NCBI RefSeq assembly: GCF_032854445.1
Contig: NC_088297.1
Location: 11,248,163 to 11,312,162 of the forward strand
Reading direction: 5' to 3'
DNA from: Liolophura sinensis
Taxonomy: Eukaryota; Mollusca; Polyplacophora; Chitonida; Chitonidae
DNA length: 64,000 nt
Below are positions 37,601 to 53,626 of this stretch, in pieces (positions within the stretch are counted from its first letter, which is position 1; each line of letters starts with the position of its first letter). Both the position numbers and the translations under genes were made by a program. The notes under the pieces were generated by a model. It was not told the DNA's origin. It did not search any database and worked only from the letters and a program-made list of their open reading frames with translations.

Positions 37601-40600
37601 GAAGAAAAACCACACCTGAACAGAGGGCGCTCCACTCGTCACTGCCATCAGGACAATCGGCTACACCGTCGCACATCAAAAAAGGGTCAAGGTCAGTGCA
37701 GCCTGCATGCGGATAGGCATTGCAACAAGTTAAAACCTTTACCTGCCTACATTACGCGTGATGTATTGTTATAATTTTTATTAATTTTGGCACGAGCCAA
37801 TTTATAAAGTTCGTCCAAGACGAGGACTAGAGAGCCATACTTCTTTCTCTGAACTGTTAAAGACAACAAGAAAACTCTCAGATCATTTATCCAGGGAACA
37901 TAAGTCCATTGCCGACATAGCTAGCATTTTTTGGGGGGTATATGTGAGTACAGCAAAAACAGTAAAACCAGAGAAGTGCGACAGTGTGAAAGTTAACAAA
38001 TGGTGACAGGTAACTGTTGAAACGCGACTTCTTGCCAATTTACCTCAGTTAGGGTTTTATTATGATTAATCATGTATATTCGTACAGTAGTAGCGTATAC
38101 ATCGCTCAGCACCATGTATTCAGCGGACTTAGGGTATGCAGTGATATTAGCTGCAATTTATTAGACGCCACTGGTCTAGAATTTCTCAAATACTGTGTTG
38201 TCATTACATTTAATATACACTCACATGGAGACCATTATTGAATGGAGCTAATGAAATAAGAAACATATGTTTCAGTGTTGATAAGAAATAGTGAAGACCT
38301 ACCAGGGTTTGACACACAATCTGTTTGTTCTTCAATCCGCTTTATTCTGATGGAAGCCTTGGCTCTCAAATTGAAATATGACAAAAAATGCACCCTCTGC
38401 AAGCCTTTGGAAGGTAATATTACAGATATGGCTTCGGAATTTGCAGAATAGGCTGACAATGAAGTCCACAGTCGTCGCCTTATGCCAGAGGTGTCTTCCC
38501 CAAATATGGCCAGTGGTGTGTGCAAGGGAGACAATCCGTCCATATCAACCTTCAAGCATGTTTGCGAACAGCCACCCGAAGTCTGCAGACAGTCTAATGG
38601 AGGGGAGACCATGTGAGCTATGTCAGTGAAGTCACTCTGCAAGCTGAAAACGCTGGCAATACCCTCGAAAGATTCTGCGTCTGCAACACAAGGAAATGGA
38701 AATACAGGTGTAAAACGAGTTTTGAGCCGGTATATATTAACGATTTGACATCACGAGGAAATACATGACAATTATGTGTCGAAAGGAAATAATCTTACAT
38801 GCCTAGATTTTTTTCTATACATGTACATGTATGGTGCCGGGTACACAGAGCCCGGCTGATTCTAATCAAAATTTAAGTTCCTCGTCACAATGCTCAGTTT
38901 TTCAAGTGGAAGTTAAATTTTTTACAAATAAGATAGCATTTATCAGGTGGTCAAAGCTTCAATTTCTGGCGCCCAAAAAATAAGGTCGGAAATCATACTT
39001 TCAATTGCACAAATTATTTCTTTTCTTGGTGATAAAGTATGGTATAGAGCATTGTTTAACTTTAAACAAATGCGCGTTTGAAATGGCAGCCTGTGGAATC
39101 CTTAAGACCTAGGCCTACATGTTTATTCTCAATGGCACTTGTTTCAGGTTAACGTTTCACTGGATTAAGCGTTACTTTCAGTAACCATTTTACGACATTA
39201 TGCCAGTCTATTTTTTCAGTAAGCCTATCCCAAAGCCTTTTCATAAAGAACAGCATATCCATGTTGACAAGCGAAGTTGAGAATATTTCTTCCAGACCGG
39301 TGAAGTTGCTGTCAGACAGGCAGGTAAAATAAAAGCTGAATAAAAAAACATCCTTGGCAGAACTAGTGATTCTCTAGATCTTGTAATTTCAACATTGTTC
39401 ACAAGATTTTCGGAAAAATAAAATGTAACGATATAATCCCTATAACTGTTTTAGAGGCCCAAGACTTATCGTTATTAAAACAGCTGAAACCCACACAGAA
39501 CATAAAAATGTCATCTAAAGCTTTATAAGGGGTCAGTCAGCTTATCTGTAGTTCAGGTGCCTTACCAGGTTCTTCTCTTTTCCCTTCACAAGTGAGTCCC
39601 AGAACGCTAAATTCACCACAGTTCCCGACATCCCACAGGTTGTCCGAACAGTCAGAGACGTCGGATTCTGACCCAGAGCACTGAAGCTTGTAGATCAAGA
39701 ATCTGCCTGTGCCACGCCCATATAGGAGACAACAGTGAAACTGTACGAAACTGAAAGGAAATACGAAAAACGCAATACCGAAATGTTGCGATGAAATACG
39801 CTTTGACAAGGAATTTTTCTTCCATAAGAAAATTCCGTAAAACGGTCCTGAAACTAGATATCCTTAGTAACAGACGTCGTGTGTAAAAATAAATTGTCCT
39901 CCTAATGTTACAGCATTGGGAAATGACTATTTTTGAATTTTTGTCAGCGTAAGTGGTGTATTCATTTGAATTTTCAGGTTTCCAGATAGTGTGAGTATTT
40001 CTGTAGAGTTTTCTTGAAGTTGTTTTATTTTTATATAACCAGGGCGTACTGCTCACGGACGAAGTGGAAAAACAAGCGTCTTTTATGCTTCAATATAAGA
40101 CTGGTCATGTTTGTTTCGCAGACCATAGGGTGATCACGTGATGTCCAACTTCCGGGACGTCTGACAGAATATGAAATGCAACGTTTCATGAATTATATAT
40201 TACGTTTATTTCGTGTCGTAACATGAACGATTAGAAATAAGATTTTCGGCTTCCTCGTCACGGAAGTTTAGATTATTTAAATATAAGTAGGACTTTTATC
40301 ATATTTCAGCTGTCAGTCCTGCAACATTTGCAAATGATCGTTTAACAGTTACCTCCCCTGAGTCCATAAGGACGTGACCGGGAGGTGTCAGTTGTGACAT
40401 GAACTCACATAATTGCTATATTTGTTTTGGTTTACTGGTTGCTTGGTTTAACTTTGGAGTAATCCGTCACATAGTGCAAGTGTTTTTTTTTTTCAGTTTC
40501 CAGCTCACCAACAAATCTAAAGTGTGAACAGCGAAGGTCAACCGAAATGACAATAACAGGATTGCGCCATTTTAGGCCTACTGGTTGAAGAAAACAAATT

Positions 40601-42856
40601 CGAAACCAGTTGAGACGACAGAAAAAGCACACACATATAAAACACAACTGGCTATATGTCAAGACGATACCGTCGATATGCCAGTCACGACAACCAAGTC
40701 AGAAATACCAAATTTCACTTATACGACGGCGGCCAGCATTATGTTGGGAAGAAACCGGGCAGAGTCGGGGGAAACCCACGACCATCCGCAGGTTGCTGGC
40801 TGACCTTCCCATATAAGTGTATTAGCGTCAGGTTGATGCTTGTGCATTTAAATGGCATGTTATTAGACACGGATAGGATTTCATTTGATTTATTTATCTA
40901 ATTGGTGTTTCACGCCGTACTCAAGAATATTTCACTTATACGACGGTGGCCAGCATTATCGTGGGAGGAAACCGGGCAGAACCCATGGAAATCCACGACC
41001 ATCCGCAGGTTGTTGTCAAACCTCCCCACGTACGACCGGAGAGGAGATACAGATATGACGCAGAGCGCCAACGATAATTCCCAGGAAGTGCATATTTGCA
41101 ATAGATGCGATAACATATTCGAATTTTGTGCGGGACTGTGTTTAGGTACCCTCGCTTAGTGAAATAGCTGGGTTAACAGTTGGACAATAATTGCACCAAC
41201 CGACAATCAAACGACAAAGGTACCTTTATAGCTTTTTGTCGCAGTTTACAGCGCAAAGAAAAAAAATCTTTCAAGAAAAGATTACTAATATATCAATTTT
41301 GCCAAAATATGCATGTAGCTAACCTCTGGTAACCCAAGTTTCGGCAGATAACCGTTGCAGTTGTAGCTGTCATCCCCGTATCACAGATGTTTCCCCATCT
41401 GCCGTTGTGGTACACTTCTACCCGCCCAGACGCTGATTCTTCTGACAACCGAGACCCCACCAGACGCATAAGTGTGGGTTCTGTGCGTGAATAAAAATGA
41501 CAAAACATAAACCCTCAACATTTTCATGAAATCGAGAGATTATCTACTTATAGACCAAGAAAGCAAATCGTGACCTGCCTTCGTCAGGCACATGTACCTG
41601 ACAAACCTTCTAAGTAAAAGCCATAGCTGTGTCAGCAAGAACTGGATTCGAACACGCGACCTCCCTAAAGGGCCGACAAACGCAGTGAGCTTTAATGATC
41701 TATGCCAGCGAGGCCCACTGTTGACTTAATGCTCCCATTATTGGTTTAATGTTCCCATTATTCTCTAATGCTCTCATCATTGGTTTATGTACCAATTATT
41801 GGTTTAATGTACCAATCATTGGTTTAATGTATCCATTATTGGTTTAATGTTCCCAGTATTGGTTTAATGCTCTCATTATTGGTTTATTGTTTATTGTTTC
41901 CATTATGACCTTAATTATTGTATAGACAAATTACATATTACCAAATGCCACATGACATGCATAATCATGTTACATCAATAATATTTACCAATGCAATATC
42001 GACATTTACAGGTGGCTATAACAAAAGGTTGTAGTTAATGTGTAATATACTAGGTTTAAGGAATACTTGAGTCAAACATGACAAGCATAACGAAAGAAAA
42101 GATAACCCAAATAAAGTATTATTAAAACCTTAAAGTATTCCACTGGACAGAAGTGTTGTGTAATCGATCGATAACACATGCTAAAACCATAACTATTAAT
42201 ATCAAAGAAAAATCAAAGGAACTAAAAATTATAGACATTACCTTTCGTTTTTGATATTACCTTTGGCTTTCCATCGTACCCAGAAGCCTTCACTTCCGGT
42301 AGAGTTTCTGTATCCACAGGCGAACCAATCAGAAAAAGCACATTTCGTTGTTCTTGCTAAAACATCAAATTAACTTATTTACATAGGTATTAGCTATGTA
42401 AGAACTGTCATGACGTCAAGCAAAAGTAAAAAGCTTTAATTGAACCAGTCACTTTTTCCAACTTGCCATACATGTATATGACGAGGTGTCATCTACCAAA
42501 CTGTCATCATAGCACAAGTGTTTATTTATTACTTTTTTCTCTTTATATTCTCTTGGTACCGCTTTGGTGGCTTAATGGTTAGAGCTTCTGCCTTGAAGTC
42601 TGGGGGGTCATACCAAATACTTTAAAAATGGTACTTGCTGCTAACTTGTTTGGCCCTCAGCACTGAGGAGACTAGAGCAAGGAAACATGACTGGTTGGTC
42701 TGGTGTCACTATAATGTGACTGGGTGGGGTGTCATGTCTGATGTCATCGGCATGATACTTCAGTAGCGGCAGTAGTTTGACCGTATGGGCTCGCATTGCA
42801 AGTACACACCTAATGACTCCTCGTCATCACATGAAAATTGTTAAGTACGACGCTAA

Positions 42857-42940
<84 letters not shown>

Positions 42941-45900
42941 TGCATTCTCCACACAGATCGTGGCTTCTTAACGCTATGATATTATATGATATACTACGAC
43001 GGCGGCCAGCATTATGGTGTAAGGAAACCTGGCAGAGCCCGCGGGAAACCCATGACAATCCGCGGGTTGCTGGCAGACCTTCTCACGTACGAAAAGTAGC
43101 TTAATGCGACTGTCCAAATAAACACTGGCCTCGTTCTATTAGTCGGTATCTCCACAATCCTTAGTTAGAGTTCGACCTGACCGATGGGTAGAAGTCCAAA
43201 TAATCACTGACAAAGTTATACTTACCACAGTATGAGCTGGCCTCATACGACTGGTCGGTGCCCAAGTAATCACTGACAGACTTACACTTACTATTGTTGG
43301 AACTGGCCTCAACCGATGGACTGGTGTCCAAAGAATCACTGACAAACTAAAACTTACTATTGTTGGAACTGGCCTCAACCGATGGACTGGTGTCCAAAGA
43401 ATCACTGACAGACTAACACTTACCATTGTTAGAACTGGCCTCAACCGATGGATTGGTGTCCAAATAATCACTGACAGAGTTATACTTATCACACTATGAG
43501 TTGGCCTCGTCATACTGATCAGTGTCCACATAACCGTTGACCGTTGAGTTATATGTACACTTACTACAATTAGAGCTGGCCTCATTTGACAGATTGATGT
43601 CTGAGCAATCGTTGACAGAGTTACATTTACCACAGTTAGATTTGGTTTCGTCTGCCAGATCGGTGTCTGTGCAATCGTTAAAAGAGTTACACTTACAACA
43701 ATTAGAGCTGACCACATCTGACAGATCGGCGTCTGAGCAATCGTTGATAGAGTTACAATTACCACAGTTAGAGTTGGCTTAGTCTGCCAGATCGGTGTCT
43801 GTGCAATCGTTGATAGAGTTACACTTAGCATAATTAGAGCTTGCCTCATCTGACAGATCGATGTCTGCAATCGTTGACAGAGTTACACTTACCACAATTA
43901 GAGCTGACCTCATCTGACAGATCGATGTCTGAGCAATCGTTGACAGAGTTACACTAACCACAATTAGAGCTGACCTCATCTGACAGATCAGACAAAGGTC
44001 TGAGCAATCTTTGAAAGAGTTACACTTACTACAGTTAGAGCTGGCTTCATCTGACAGATCGGTGTCTGGGCAATCGTTGAAAGAGTTACGCTTACCACAG
44101 TTAGAGCTGGCTTCATCTTCCAGATCGATGTCTATGCAATCGTTGAAAGAATTACACTTACCACAATTAAAGCTGACCTCATCTGACAGATCGGTGTCTG
44201 AGCAATCGTTGAAAGAGATACACTAACCACAATTAGAGCTGACCTCATCTGACAGATCGATGTCTGAGCAATCGTTGACAGAGTTACACTAGCCACAATT
44301 AGAGCTGACCTCATCTGACAGATCAGACAAAGGTCTGAGCAATCTTTGAAAGAGTTACACTTACTACAGTTAGAGCTGGCTTCATCTGACAGATCGGTGT
44401 CTGGGCAATCGTTGAAAGAGTTACGCTTACCACAGTTAGAGCTGGCTTCATCTGCCAGATCGATGTCTATGCAATCGTTGAAAGAATTACACTTACTACA
44501 GTTAGAGCTGGCTTCACCTGACAGATCGGTGTCTGAGCAATCGTTGACAGAGTTACACTTACCACAATTAGAGCTGACCTCATCTGACAGATCGGTGTCT
44601 GTGCAATCGTTGAAAGAATTACACTTACTACAGTTAGAGCTGGCTTCACCTGACAGATCGGTGTCTGAGCAATCGTTGACAGAGTTACACTAACTACAGT
44701 TAGAGCTGGCTTCATCTGACAGATCGGTGTCTGAGCAATCGTTGACAGAGTTACACTTACCACAGAGTTGGCTTCATCTGACAGATCGGTGTCTGAGCAA
44801 TTGTTGAAAGAGTTACACTTGCCACAGTTAGATCTGACCTCATCTGAGAGATCGGTGTCTGAGCAATCGTTGACAGAGTTACATTTACCACAGTTAGAGC
44901 TGGTTTCATCTGACAGATCGGTGTCCGAGCAATCGTTGAAAGAGTTACACTTACCACAGTTAGAGTTGGCTTCGTCTGACAGATCGGTGTCTGAGCAATC
45001 GTTGATAGAGTTACATGTTTCTTCTTTTGGGATGCAGGTCAGCGTGGACGCGCATTTAAATTCGCCCAGACCGCACTCTGTGGAGAAATAAGTGATCTAT
45101 TTAGAAATATACAGTTGAAATAAGCGAGGACAGTATTCTTTTACGATGTATATATTTATTTGATTGGTGTTTGTATATAGCTGGTTTGAACAATCAGAAG
45201 AAACAAATCACAAATTACTGGCACCACTGCCAGTTTAAATTCTTATAAACCTCTGCTACATAGTAAGGGTGGACTATACTTTCCATACTTTTGGTTGTTT
45301 AGCTTTCGTATTACTAACCGATCTAGTACCGTCAGCAGCTTCCGTTGTCTGGATATCTTATGCTTCTGAGAGCATTTACTTATTCCTGTGTTAACTCTGG
45401 CTGTTTGTGTCCTTTCCTTACTTTCTTCGTGACTTGGTGGACTTAAGGGTATTGTTACTTTCTATGTATAACTTTTGGGGCTTAATACTAGTTTCCTATT
45501 GATTCCTGCGTAGTAAAATATTAGACAAAAAAAGCAAAAATCATTAATTAACAGATGAGCTAAAGGAGAGGGTGCATCAAACCAAGCATCAGATAGAAAT
45601 ATCCTAAACCATGTGCATAAAGTCTTTATATTTCTCAGTAAAATGTCGTTAATACTCCGGAATAACAACTTATTTTATGATGAATAATAATAGTAATCAT
45701 AATAATACTACTAAATACCTATTTCGTCGCAAGCTTGAGGATCAAGAATGATATTGTCAACTCTGATAATGTCGGATTCCTCATCGCCAGCTAATCCTTC
45801 AAAGACAATCGCGTATCCGGACGTTCCGTTATGGTTTACCGGAACACGGACCGATCTCCAGCTCTGGTGAGCAGACGACGTTAGACTCCACAACAGTTCT

Positions 45901-48900
45901 CCCTGAAAGTCTGACTTCTTCTCTGCCATCTCTCCCATGACCTTGTACACAGCCAATCTCCTTCCATGGACTCCGTCAAATTCGTAGTCAAAACTGAGAC
46001 AGCTTGACGTTGGAGTTTGTGGGATGAAAGGACTTGTAATGTAACCATGGCCAAGTGTGACGTCGGAGAACGTCAGATGACGACCTGAAGAGAAACGTTT
46101 TCGAAGCACAAAACATTTTTGGACAAAGAGAGGAGTAAGTTTAAAGGAGTAAAACATCTGTAAATATACGTGTATCAATGGTAAACACTTTGCTGTACAA
46201 TATGACAATCAGAGCGCACTTCTCCTCTACTTCCCAAAGTTCAACGTGGTTGTTTGTCGAGCGTGTGGCAAAAATGTAACAATTAAACCATTCACAACAG
46301 ATCAGGTAGCAAATGAGTTTTTTTTACTTAAAGATGTAGACTCAAGGTGATAAATCTAAAGGAGCATGTCAACACTACACACTACAGTTATCATTCTGTC
46401 TGAACAAACGGGTACATTCATATATAAATTAGTTTACATGGCGATTGAATGATTTGCGCCAAGGACATCAGATGTGTTTCAGGCATTTAGACTGTTTAAA
46501 CAAACGGGGAACAATCCATGTAATATGCAAATGAGTTACCACATACATCAAGCTGCTTTACAAAATGGATAAGTTGACTAACCTTCATTAGTTTCGTTCA
46601 GGTGGCGAGGTTTCCAATTTGATTCCATATAAGGGTCCGTGTATCCACACATTCCAGGTTCACTGAACGTGCAGTTAACTGATGCTAGGAGACAAGACAG
46701 AATTTAGTTATTTATTTGATTGCTGTTTCACGCCGTACTCGAGAATAGTTTTTCCTATAAAACGGCGGCCAGCATTATGGTGGGTGGAAACAGGGCAGAG
46801 CCAGGAGGAAACCCACGACCATTCATAGGTTGCTGGCAGACCTTCCCACGTACGGCCGGAGAGAAAGCCAGCATGAGCTGGACTTAAACTCACAGCGACC
46901 GCATTGGTGAGAGGCCCCTGGGTCATTACGCTGCGCTAGCGCGCTAACCACACTGAGCCACAGAGGTACGTTGCAACACTAAAATATTTAAGGTGTGGTT
47001 TACACATGTAACATAAGAGACCTTTATAATTAAATGGAAAATACCTGTCTATGCGTGTCTTAAACAGAAATACCACGTGTAAGGTAGAAAGACCAATAAT
47101 CGTTTGACATTTATGAGTAAACTAGGGGAAGTAAACAGGTAAGGCAATAGTACCCTGTCTATACCCTCACATCCAGACCCGTACGTTGACTGACGTAGCA
47201 TCTAGAAACTCGGTGCTGAAGGTGCTCCAGACACATATATGTTTACAAGTAAAAAATCACCGTGATATGTGTATTATTGATCACAGAAAAAGATCAACCA
47301 CAAGCACTCCAACAATGCAACAAATACTTCCGTTAGAGACAAAGGGAGAGTACTCTCCAATCGTGACCAATCTAGCAAAGGTGAAGGATGGTTGAAAGAA
47401 AAAATGCTTTACACCACTTCAGAATCAGAACAGCTCCAAAATTATTTGTTTGACAGATGTTTGACCTGTTCACACAATTGTTAAGTAATGTTGTTGACAG
47501 ACAGACTAATTGACCAGTCTACTTAAATACACAAACACACAAATATTTGTTTTCGGATCACTTTCAGACAAAACGATAGAAAATGAAGAATTATATTTTT
47601 TATAACATAGTGTTTTGCTTTTCACCTAATATGCTTCAGTTATACTATAGCGGTAAGATTCCGACCCTTGCTCCATGTAAGCGTGGTCTATTCATGAATA
47701 TTTATGGAACACGTCTATCCGTAACTCTACCGCCTAACACCAACCCTGAAAAAATATTGCCATGCCAGTATTGGCGTGTTTCATTAATATTCATGAGTAC
47801 GCCACGTCTACCTGGAGAAATGGTTGGAATCTTACCACTAGCCATTTATACAAATTCCACGAACTCAATCATTTATTTATTTATCTGATTGGTTTTTTAC
47901 GCCGTACTCAAGAATATTTCACTTATCGACGGCGGCCAGCCATTATAATGGGAGGAAACCGGGCAGAGCCCAGGGGAAACCACGCCCATCCGCAGGTTAG
48001 AACTGAATCACAGATGATAAATTGGCTTATACCTTGACGGCAGATGCCCGGAGTTAAGAAAATGTCGTCGATGGCAAACACCAGGGTTTCTTCAAACATC
48101 TCCACTGTGGATAAATCAACTGTTGCAACCTTCATCTGTAAGTACACACGGTCTGTGCCGGCTGGTATGGTGACAAATACGGGGGAGAAGTGGGTAACGT
48201 TCTTCAATGAGGCCGTTGCGTTGATATACATGTAGTCAGCTGGATGAAGTTGAACTACAGGTCTGCTGCGGCCGTTGAACCTGGCGTGGACCAGTAGGAT
48301 ATGCGTGCGATCACGAGTACTGGAGTGCCAGTAAAATGTGAGACAGCTCATTCCAGGAAATGGCGAGAATTCTGGAGAGGCGAGGTTCGACCAGCTTGGG
48401 TAGTAGGCTTGAACAACCATAACATGCCTGGGATGTGAAACAATTTATTTAAATTTTATTTGTCAGCACGCCATTTATTTATTTATTTATTTATTTGTGT
48501 ATCATTTGTTTATTTATTTAGTTGTTCCTTTTACATCATGCTCAGAATTCTTTCACTTAGTCGAATTCGAATAGCCTAATGAAAATAAAACAAATACGAT
48601 TTGACACAGTTTGTAAATTTCAAATTTCATTTATAAAATAAATGCAACGTATGTATTATAAATGTGATGGATGCTGCCTTCCTCTCCGGCCGTCAGTGGG
48701 AAGGTCTTGCAGCAACTTGCGGATGGTCGTGGGTTTCCCCCTGGCTGTGCCCGGTTTTCCACCCACCATAATGCTGGCCGAGGTCGTATAAGTGAAATAT
48801 TCTTGAGTACAGCGTAAAACACCAATCAAATAAAATAAATAAATAAAATAAATGTGATGGCAATACAGTATTTTGAGTGATTCTAGACCAGTGGCGTATA

Positions 48901-51900: not shown

Positions 51901-53626
51901 TTATGCCACGTCATGAAGATAAAACCTCGCGATTTTTAAACTTCATGTGGGATACTTTATCGATGAAAATGTATTCATTCGGTTCACTGTTGTGTTTTCT
52001 TTTAAGCTTGACTCAACTTACCAGTAATGGAGACAGAATCTGTGTCGATGTTCAGATTGGCGGTGTTTTTGATAGAGTCTTTGATCACAGCCGTCACTTT
52101 CTGTTTAGCGTCTGCACCTTCCACAGTTACCATAACATCTCCGTTTTCCTCTGTCTTGGCGTCAGAAGGCAGAGTTATTACTATTATGAAATCCACGATA
52201 ATACTCCCGGACCTGTCAGAGGAAAACACGTGACCTAGTTATATCACCAAGTAATCGGTAGGTTACGAGTAGCTGACATGCTCAACAAGTATTTGTTAGC
52301 TACCATGCAAGTACATATACTCGGTACCTCACGAATTTCTCAGCTGCTCAACAAGTATTCGGTAGCTCGCCAAGTACTCGATTAAAAATTATTGAGCTGT
52401 TCACTAGTACCCAGTTACCCATCAAGCACTCTGTAGCGGACGAATTACACTCCTGCTTAGCAATTAAAAGTGATCTGGTCTTTAAATAATTAATAAACCT
52501 CTTCAACCCAAAGATTTGTGAAGAATTTAATTACAAAGTAAAACAACATGATCTTTCACTGGAGAGAATATCTTACCGTAAGTTTATAAAAACAACATGA
52601 TCTTTCACTGGAGAGAATATCTTACCGTAAGTTTATAACTTTCACAGCTTCATATGACAGTGACAGCTTGTCGTTCTTTAATGAAGATTCAAGCTGTAGA
52701 AAAGGAAAAAAATATGACATTTGTCATGCTGACAGTCATTTTGAATCAAATTCAGGGGATGCATGAAATAAGATAGATTCGATACCCATAGATAATTTTA
52801 AGCAGACTTAGAACGTACTCAAGTCCAGCTCATGCTGTGGCTTCCTCTCCGCCCGTAAGTGGGAAGGTCTGCAGCATCCTGCGGATGGTCGTGGGTTTTC
52901 TCTGCCCGGTTTCCACCCACCATAATGCTGGCCGCCGTCGTATAAGTGAAATATTCTCGAGTATGGCATAAAACAACAATCAAATAAATAAATAAATAAA
53001 CTGGAACGAACCTAATAGTTTAGCATGTTTTACTTAAGACAAAGAAAAGAATGAAGTATAAATCAATAAACAAACCAGGACGTTAGTTCCACATGTGTCA
53101 GTATTAATTGTTTTTCAACCGCGTGAAATGATTCTAAAACATTGGATTCTACGGTGAACCGTTGAAGCCAATTGGGTATAAATTACGTCACATCCATACT
53201 TTTTGTTTAAAATAGTTCGCATACATTTATGCATTTTGAATACAGAGGTTTAGAAGAATGTGTGTAGAAAACTGTTAAAACCTGACGTGATGTCACCAGT
53301 CATAAAATGGCCAGAAAAGGCCACCGTAGAATGCCTTGTTTCAAATGCATTTTTAATGTGATTGTGTGTTAAACGTGATGACAATACAACATTTTGAGTA
53401 ATTCTAGAGGAATGGCGTCTCACAAATTGCAACTAACATCATTGCATTTTGTTTTCTTTTTTTTTTTATCTATTTCTGTTTAAACCATTGTGCTACGGGT
53501 TCTGTTCGATGCTACTTATGTACATGAACAGTCGGAATAAAATCCGGACTGACTTAAAGTTGCAAGAGGCCAGATTTCACCGGCAATAAGTGTGACCATT
53601 TGCCAGCTATCAGTATATGTATTATG

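Follow-up and report, generated by a model that had tools for sequence, protein, structure and literature searches.

Behind the LDLa exon of a minus-strand gene in the DNA analysed here, a stretch of 64,000 nucleotides from Liolophura sinensis that we call the window, the final 66 bases of that exon recur in the intron as 27 imperfect copies, each beginning at a donor position. In our view this array is probably a minisatellite that was seeded at the exon–intron junction and has been drifting in the intron, with the exon-nearest donor being the one used, by exon definition. Positions below are those of the window unless a contig is named.

The gene carries MAM, LDLa and SRCR exons in that order, as judged by Pfam matches. 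The exons that matter here are the following.

45714 to 46208, minus strand: open reading frame containing the MAM exon that precedes the LDLa exon (Pfam MAM, 1.4e-14)
44955 to 45077, minus strand: LDLa exon of 123 nt, exon 11 of the preliminary description (Pfam Ldl_recept_a, 8.8e-8)
42261 to 42356, minus strand: following exon, in phase 1, coding for the first part of a MAM domain (acceptor and phase)
39540 to 41514, minus strand: downstream SRCR exons (open reading frames 41514–41296 and 39863–39540)

Read from the sequence, the LDLa exon (45077–44955) is in phase 1 at both its start and its end; it encodes six Cys and an acidic SDE motif, and its match to PF00057 scores 32.7 bits against a cut-off of 24.1. 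The exon at 42261–42356 gave no Pfam match on its own and has a counterpart in both of the paralogs described below, with 47% identity over 30 amino acids. The SRCR exons match at 3.7e-13 and at 4.5e-5, the latter with 24.1 bits, under the cut-off of 26.1. Upstream in the gene there is a weak SEA match (0.014) and, read by eye, a single membrane-spanning stretch; downstream, also by eye, are the trypsin-like segments LTAAHC, DIALIKL and GDSGGPL. From its domain order, this layout may be enteropeptidase-like. Near the weak SEA match, at 52540–52638, there is a perfect 49-bp tandem duplication with CGGTAAGA on the minus strand. The introns flanking the LDLa exon are about 0.65 and 2.6 kb long, and the one that holds the 66-bp array also holds an (AT)38 microsatellite at 42862–42937.

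The array and its parts were delimited as follows.

44955 to 45020, minus strand: exon copy of the unit, the exon's last 66 nt (28-unit alignment)
44949 to 44954, minus strand: first donor, GTAAGT, the exon-proximal 5' splice site (sequence)
43160 (approximately) to 44954, minus strand: minisatellite within the intron, in which exon end and donor are present in 27 copies (Tandem Repeats Finder, unit alignment)
44823 to 44954, minus strand: the only two units that could lengthen the exon with the frame kept and no stop met (bounded by donors 44888 and 44822)
44761 to 44822, minus strand: 62-bp unit with a frame-shifting 4-bp deletion (sequence)
43959 to 44364, minus strand: units 44364–44294 and 44029–43959, each 5 bp longer, both belonging to a duplication of about 335 bp inside the array
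43122 to 43159 (approximate), minus strand: incomplete, degenerate copy of the unit at the array's far end (read by eye)

The 66-bp unit consists of the exon end (about 61 nt) and the first few intron nucleotides, and when intact contains three Cys codons. Tandem Repeats Finder scored 43556–45015 at 2004 (period 66) and 2130 (period 335), and 43194–43488 at 399 (period 66), all far above chance. Over the exon-derived part, the 66-bp units numbered 2 to 22 share 85–95% identity with the exon copy; divergence is greatest in the last five, where identity falls to 59–72%. Length changes were found in units 44822 (−4), 44364 (+5), 44029 (+5), 43892 (−2) and 43564 (+9). An exact GTAAGT stands at 15 of the 27 donor positions; GT is kept at 23, and the others have GC (2), CT (1) or AT (1). 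The preliminary description had spoken of a splice donor amplified about 28 times, which agrees with 27 intronic copies plus the exon's own. Its account of the unit as LDLa exon end plus GTAAGT donor is borne out by the 28-unit alignment and the Pfam match, and the lost donors GTTAGT and GCAAGT and the 4-bp deletion that it reported are present. In the physical sense, the array is indeed the ladder of competing 5' splice sites within one intron that it had described.

A ladder of this kind could in principle add protein. According to this reading, alternative donors add 22-residue Cys-rich blocks and so produce an extracellular region of variable length; the 66-bp unit keeps frame, reading through the exon's donor leaves the frame open for 485 nt past the exon, and the donors at 44888 and 44822 are in frame. 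The frame is nevertheless not kept through the array, which is interrupted by the 4-bp deletion of unit 44822, by the +5 units and by a stop at residue 203. Just three of the 27 donors keep the frame without a stop, the exon's own at 44954 and the two extra ones, neither of which is a GTAAGT (GTAAAT at 44888, GCAAGT at 44822). The proposed in-frame extension by 22 residues is therefore possible at these two donors and fails at all other extra donors.

The pattern of substitution argues in the same direction. Changes among the 27 intronic units were counted by the Fitch method on a tree built with FastTree; such counts are rough, because trees of minisatellite units are distorted by recombination. 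Outside the donor there were 32, 36 and 36 changes at codon positions 1, 2 and 3 across the 27 units, without an excess at third positions, and in the 21 proximal units the corresponding counts were 20, 13 and 14. With no codon-position signal, with just two usable extra units, with paralog units that are out of frame and meet early stops, and with mixed unit lengths at other junctions (see below), we consider a functional in-frame ladder highly unlikely, and rejected it as the main reading. The length-variable Cys-rich region that had been proposed thus finds no support, there being two usable extra donors, no coding signal, and a paralog unit of 43 bp that runs into a stop.

The same counts bear on the donors themselves. 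The extra donors might bind U1 or divert transcripts to frame-shifted RNA that is decayed, in which case the array would serve regulated unproductive splicing or act as a U1 platform, tuning expression or shielding the intron from premature polyadenylation. Use of 24 of the 27 donors would shift the frame or meet a stop, as read-through also does in the paralogs, and the 15 perfect GTAAGT would suit a U1 platform. Against this, the donor hexamer is not extra conserved across the 27 units: it has 11 changes, where six columns average 10.45, and 42 of 66 windows are no higher. In the 21 proximal units the donor columns changed faster than others (10 changes, where six columns average 5.18; 65 of 66 windows no higher), which hints at decay or at weak selection against decoys. 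Raw counts, which ignore relatedness, point the opposite way, with 2.17 mismatches per column at the donor against 3.53 elsewhere; eight of 66 windows were as low as the donor columns. Donor words are, moreover, not consistently enriched in tandem arrays genome-wide (see below). We regard a regulatory role of this kind as improbable. The copies are not evolving like coding sequence, and once relatedness is allowed for the donors are not preferentially kept.

A search of the genome with exon and array picked out two further loci on the same contig, at a distance of about 0.46 Mb. These, L005 and L006 (G000:C3:11750400-11766300), form a recent tandem gene pair about 10 kb apart, whose pieces are about 93% identical. 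Both repeat the order of the window gene, with MAM, LDLa, array and MAM start, and, read from the translation, an SRCR-like stretch beyond the MAM start; the MAM exon is 44% identical to that of the window gene. Their arrays lie after the equivalent exon end in the same intron and are built from a 43-bp unit of exon end plus donor, with 16 units in L005 and 18 in L006, ten GTAAGT in each. Read-through past the first donor is out of frame and meets a stop after 20 nt. A frame-keeping unit of 66 bp is thus not common to the paralogs. Their donor columns carry 0.157 mismatches, against 0.130 elsewhere. When 16 units of each array were paired, mean identity was 97.8%, four pairs having the same number and 12 being shifted by two; because L005 and L006 are near-identical and yet two units apart, array length changes on a short time scale.

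This pairing also bears on whether the array is real. Long arrays are hard to assemble, and an assembly artefact, or a dead exon, could be suspected; the units of the window array differ individually, however, those of L005 find their counterparts in L006, and the exon, its acceptor and its phases are intact, so that we regard either explanation as extremely unlikely.

The arrays could have been present before the gene duplications and been kept by concerted evolution with the exon, rather than being seeded anew in each paralog. They share intron and phase in the window gene and the paralogs, and by eye the 43-bp unit reads as the 66-bp unit with a 23-bp internal deletion, with ACACCGATCTG in common. 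In contrast, when units of standard length were compared, all 22 from the window and 29 of the 31 from the paralogs (with two ties) proved nearer to their own exon. Common ancestry of the arrays is on balance doubtful, if still a serious possibility. Arrays at the equivalent exon in the window gene and its paralogs would nonetheless be unlikely for a random process without either some local predisposition or shared ancestry. In a separate search for exon ends of LDLa type with another donor word behind them, using a pattern whose spacing just excludes a period of 66, five matches were obtained, three in the L005 and L006 arrays and two elsewhere, at C5:13360535 and C13:15664068 (G000).

Seeding at splice junctions, as we propose for the window array, is also suggested by arrays at other genes. 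We assembled a sample of 31 arrays with three close donor words on contig C1, from among the matches listed and grouped by eye: 21 from the first 25.4 Mb (L007–L026 and L035) and ten from further along (L037–L046). Having been chosen by exact donor words, the sample is biased to arrays that keep them. At least six of the 31 pieces (L008, L014, L019, L035, L038, L039) have no usable upstream flank because the array fills that side. In the first set, edge open reading frames were taken from either array edge, some from the far side, L021 being reset in frame and L022 lengthened as far as the donor; in the second, they were taken at the first donor only.

At five of the 31 arrays, a coding exon supported by homology (E of 1e-3 or lower) ends at the first donor and has its end repeated in the unit.

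L011: DUF4457 (1.5e-14), unit length 42
L015: Core-2/I-branching enzyme (Branch; 1.3e-6), unit length 46
L022, G000:C1:14888800-14890200: RNA polymerase III RPC1 (2.7e-7), unit length 44
L023: N-acetylneuraminate (sialate) lyase (9.1e-4), unit length 23
L037: GH31 (6.4e-14), unit length 39

Behind these exons there are 6 to 36 recognisable exon–donor copies. The L022 exon aligns with RPC1 residues 999–1029, up to the last codon before the donor; this donor is GTAAAT, and behind it the exon end can be recognised in 17 copies, of which 11 carry GTAAGT. Read-through meets a stop after 23 nt. L023 is the weakest of the five, with an E-value of 9.1e-4 and just 8–11 exon nucleotides in its unit. Six further candidates came without such homology. 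L040, a weaker case with a unit of 49 or 37, matches deoxyribose-phosphate aldolase at 0.0073 in NCBIfam, and gave no match in PDB or Pfam. Like L040, the others were left uncounted: L013 (chitinase 0.21, unit 34); L016 (polycystin 0.058), where no GTAAGT could be assigned to the end of the exon; L021, with no homology match and no exon-end copy found, whose exon may resemble a monocarboxylate transporter; L042 (unit 38), with no useful homology match and an exon that may be GBF1-like; and L044 (unit 36 or 34), with no homology match.

Unit length was, or included, a multiple of three at four of 11 donor junctions, about the chance expectation, the 11 being the window array (66), the paralog pair taken once (43), and L011, L015, L022, L023, L037, L040, L042, L044 and L013. 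At three of 13 junctions (L006, L022 and L037), GTAAGT is matched less closely by the donor of the exon itself than by the one most frequent in the array. The exon donors are GTATGT in L037 and GTGAGT in both L006 and L040; GTAAGT is the commonest array donor in L037 and L006, and nearly so in L040. The weaker exon donors at L006, L022 and L037 are not what a rule of donor strength would favour.

Acceptors are affected in a similar manner. Among the matches listed, 16 arrays with three close TTTGCAGG words each could be made out, of which 15 were sampled, and three of these 15 end at the acceptor directly before a homology-supported exon.

L069: talin (4.1e-23), acceptor array
L065: DHHC (5e-5, under Pfam's cut-off), acceptor array
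L075: ankyrin (1.1e-12), acceptor array

The L069 exon has no Pfam match and the L065 exon no PDB match; in both, the start of the exon is visibly repeated within the unit. Acceptor arrays at talin, DHHC and ankyrin exons imply that the phenomenon concerns splice junctions and not donors alone.

Genome-wide counts of splice words, which are counts of matches and not of arrays, add little. Donor words in tandem repeats showed no consistent enrichment over reversed or permuted words: three copies of GGTAAGT gave 1943 matches against 2785 for the reversed word, and three copies of AGGTAAGT gave 626 against 468 for the reversed word, 628 for a permuted word and 785 for the reverse of the latter. 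For the acceptor word TTTGCAGG, three copies gave 203 matches against 98, about twofold, with one reversed word as the sole control. Pfam matches were found at four of 21 donor arrays scanned and at none of the control arrays (E up to 0.5; 16 edge open reading frames from 14 of 24 arrays), numbers too small to carry much weight in a comparison whose controls were searched with Pfam only. The case for a putative class of splice-junction minisatellites rests on the direct relation in sequence between exon end and unit.

We suggest that the window array arose when a tandem duplication spanned the junction; the exon would have stayed whole and gained a second donor downstream. Further copies would then have come from slippage or unequal exchange, and presumably neither frame nor donors were under selection while the array expanded and decayed within the intron. 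By analogy with human minigenes, the pre-mRNA would be spliced almost only from the donor at 44954, and the downstream donors would be silent or used rarely, then giving mostly frame-shifted RNA. In these minigenes, expressed in human cells with 365-nt introns, only the upstream one of two identical CAG/guaagu donors was used, while intron definition favours the downstream donor (Shenasa and Hertel, 2022; PMC9225289). The donor at 44954 should be favoured because, with introns of about 0.65 and 2.6 kb, the exon is expected to be recognised by exon definition; the array would be tolerated for the same reason, an exon with long flanking introns being recognised as a unit. That the proximity rule of exon definition holds in this animal is an assumption on our part. 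Silence of the downstream donors is not guaranteed, since downstream units are reportedly used in human IFI6 (PMC4526556).

The donor minisatellite of human IFI6 is the closest precedent. There, two downstream repeat units reportedly serve as donors, with three mRNAs being made (PMC4526556), and the minisatellite of this gene (6-16, G1P3) had earlier been reported as a source of multiple splice donors (Turri et al., 1995, NAR 23:1854). In both cases a minisatellite at the end of an exon supplies donors downstream of the exon's own, and the LDLa unit, judged from its letters, would belong to the same type, since it holds a consensus donor and its array begins at the donor of the exon. Given IFI6, a donor minisatellite as such is not new. 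The LDLa array differs from the IFI6 account in that its unit is 66 bp long and mostly domain-coding, with in-frame use possible at two extra units, and in that the structure recurs at other junctions of one genome; donor use here is putative. The minigenes of PMC9225289 are alike in that identical strong donors compete for one acceptor, but these constructs carry two donors, whereas there are 27 natural ones here and 6 to 36 copies at the five homology-supported genes.

Two further comparisons concern coding sequence. Coding VNTRs of the mucin type are tandem repeats of coding sequence, and so is the LDLa array; unlike them, its copies lie beyond the donor of the exon, are broken in frame and show no coding constraint. 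The exon resembles other LDLa domains in encoding one complete Ldl_recept_a domain, whereas each unit is the second half only (Cys 4–6), so that extra units would add no full domain. In the literature searched, we found no account of junction-seeded minisatellites as a class. What may be new, and we put this as a weak claim, is the combination of a mostly domain-coding unit with recurrence at donors and acceptors across the genes of one genome.

A bolder interpretation is that in this genome a mutational process repeatedly captures donors and acceptors and amplifies them into the introns of many genes, housekeeping ones included, thereby exposing their splice-site choice to rapidly changing and possibly polymorphic ladders of competing sites, some rungs of which, including some in the window gene, are used and affect expression or protein length. 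We consider this unlikely. The array is better seen as a test of splice-site choice than as a new way of building proteins.

Tests of the choice between equal 5' splice sites have used engineered donors, in pairs in the case of PMC9225289. The genes described here carry natural donor copies, some of them nearer to the consensus than the exon's own, and thereby offer a natural test of splice-site choice; one such ladder lies in a gene that matches an RNA polymerase III subunit, and L037, L006 and L040 set donor strength against position. For this genome, our results suggest that exon–intron junctions can act as seeds of minisatellites.
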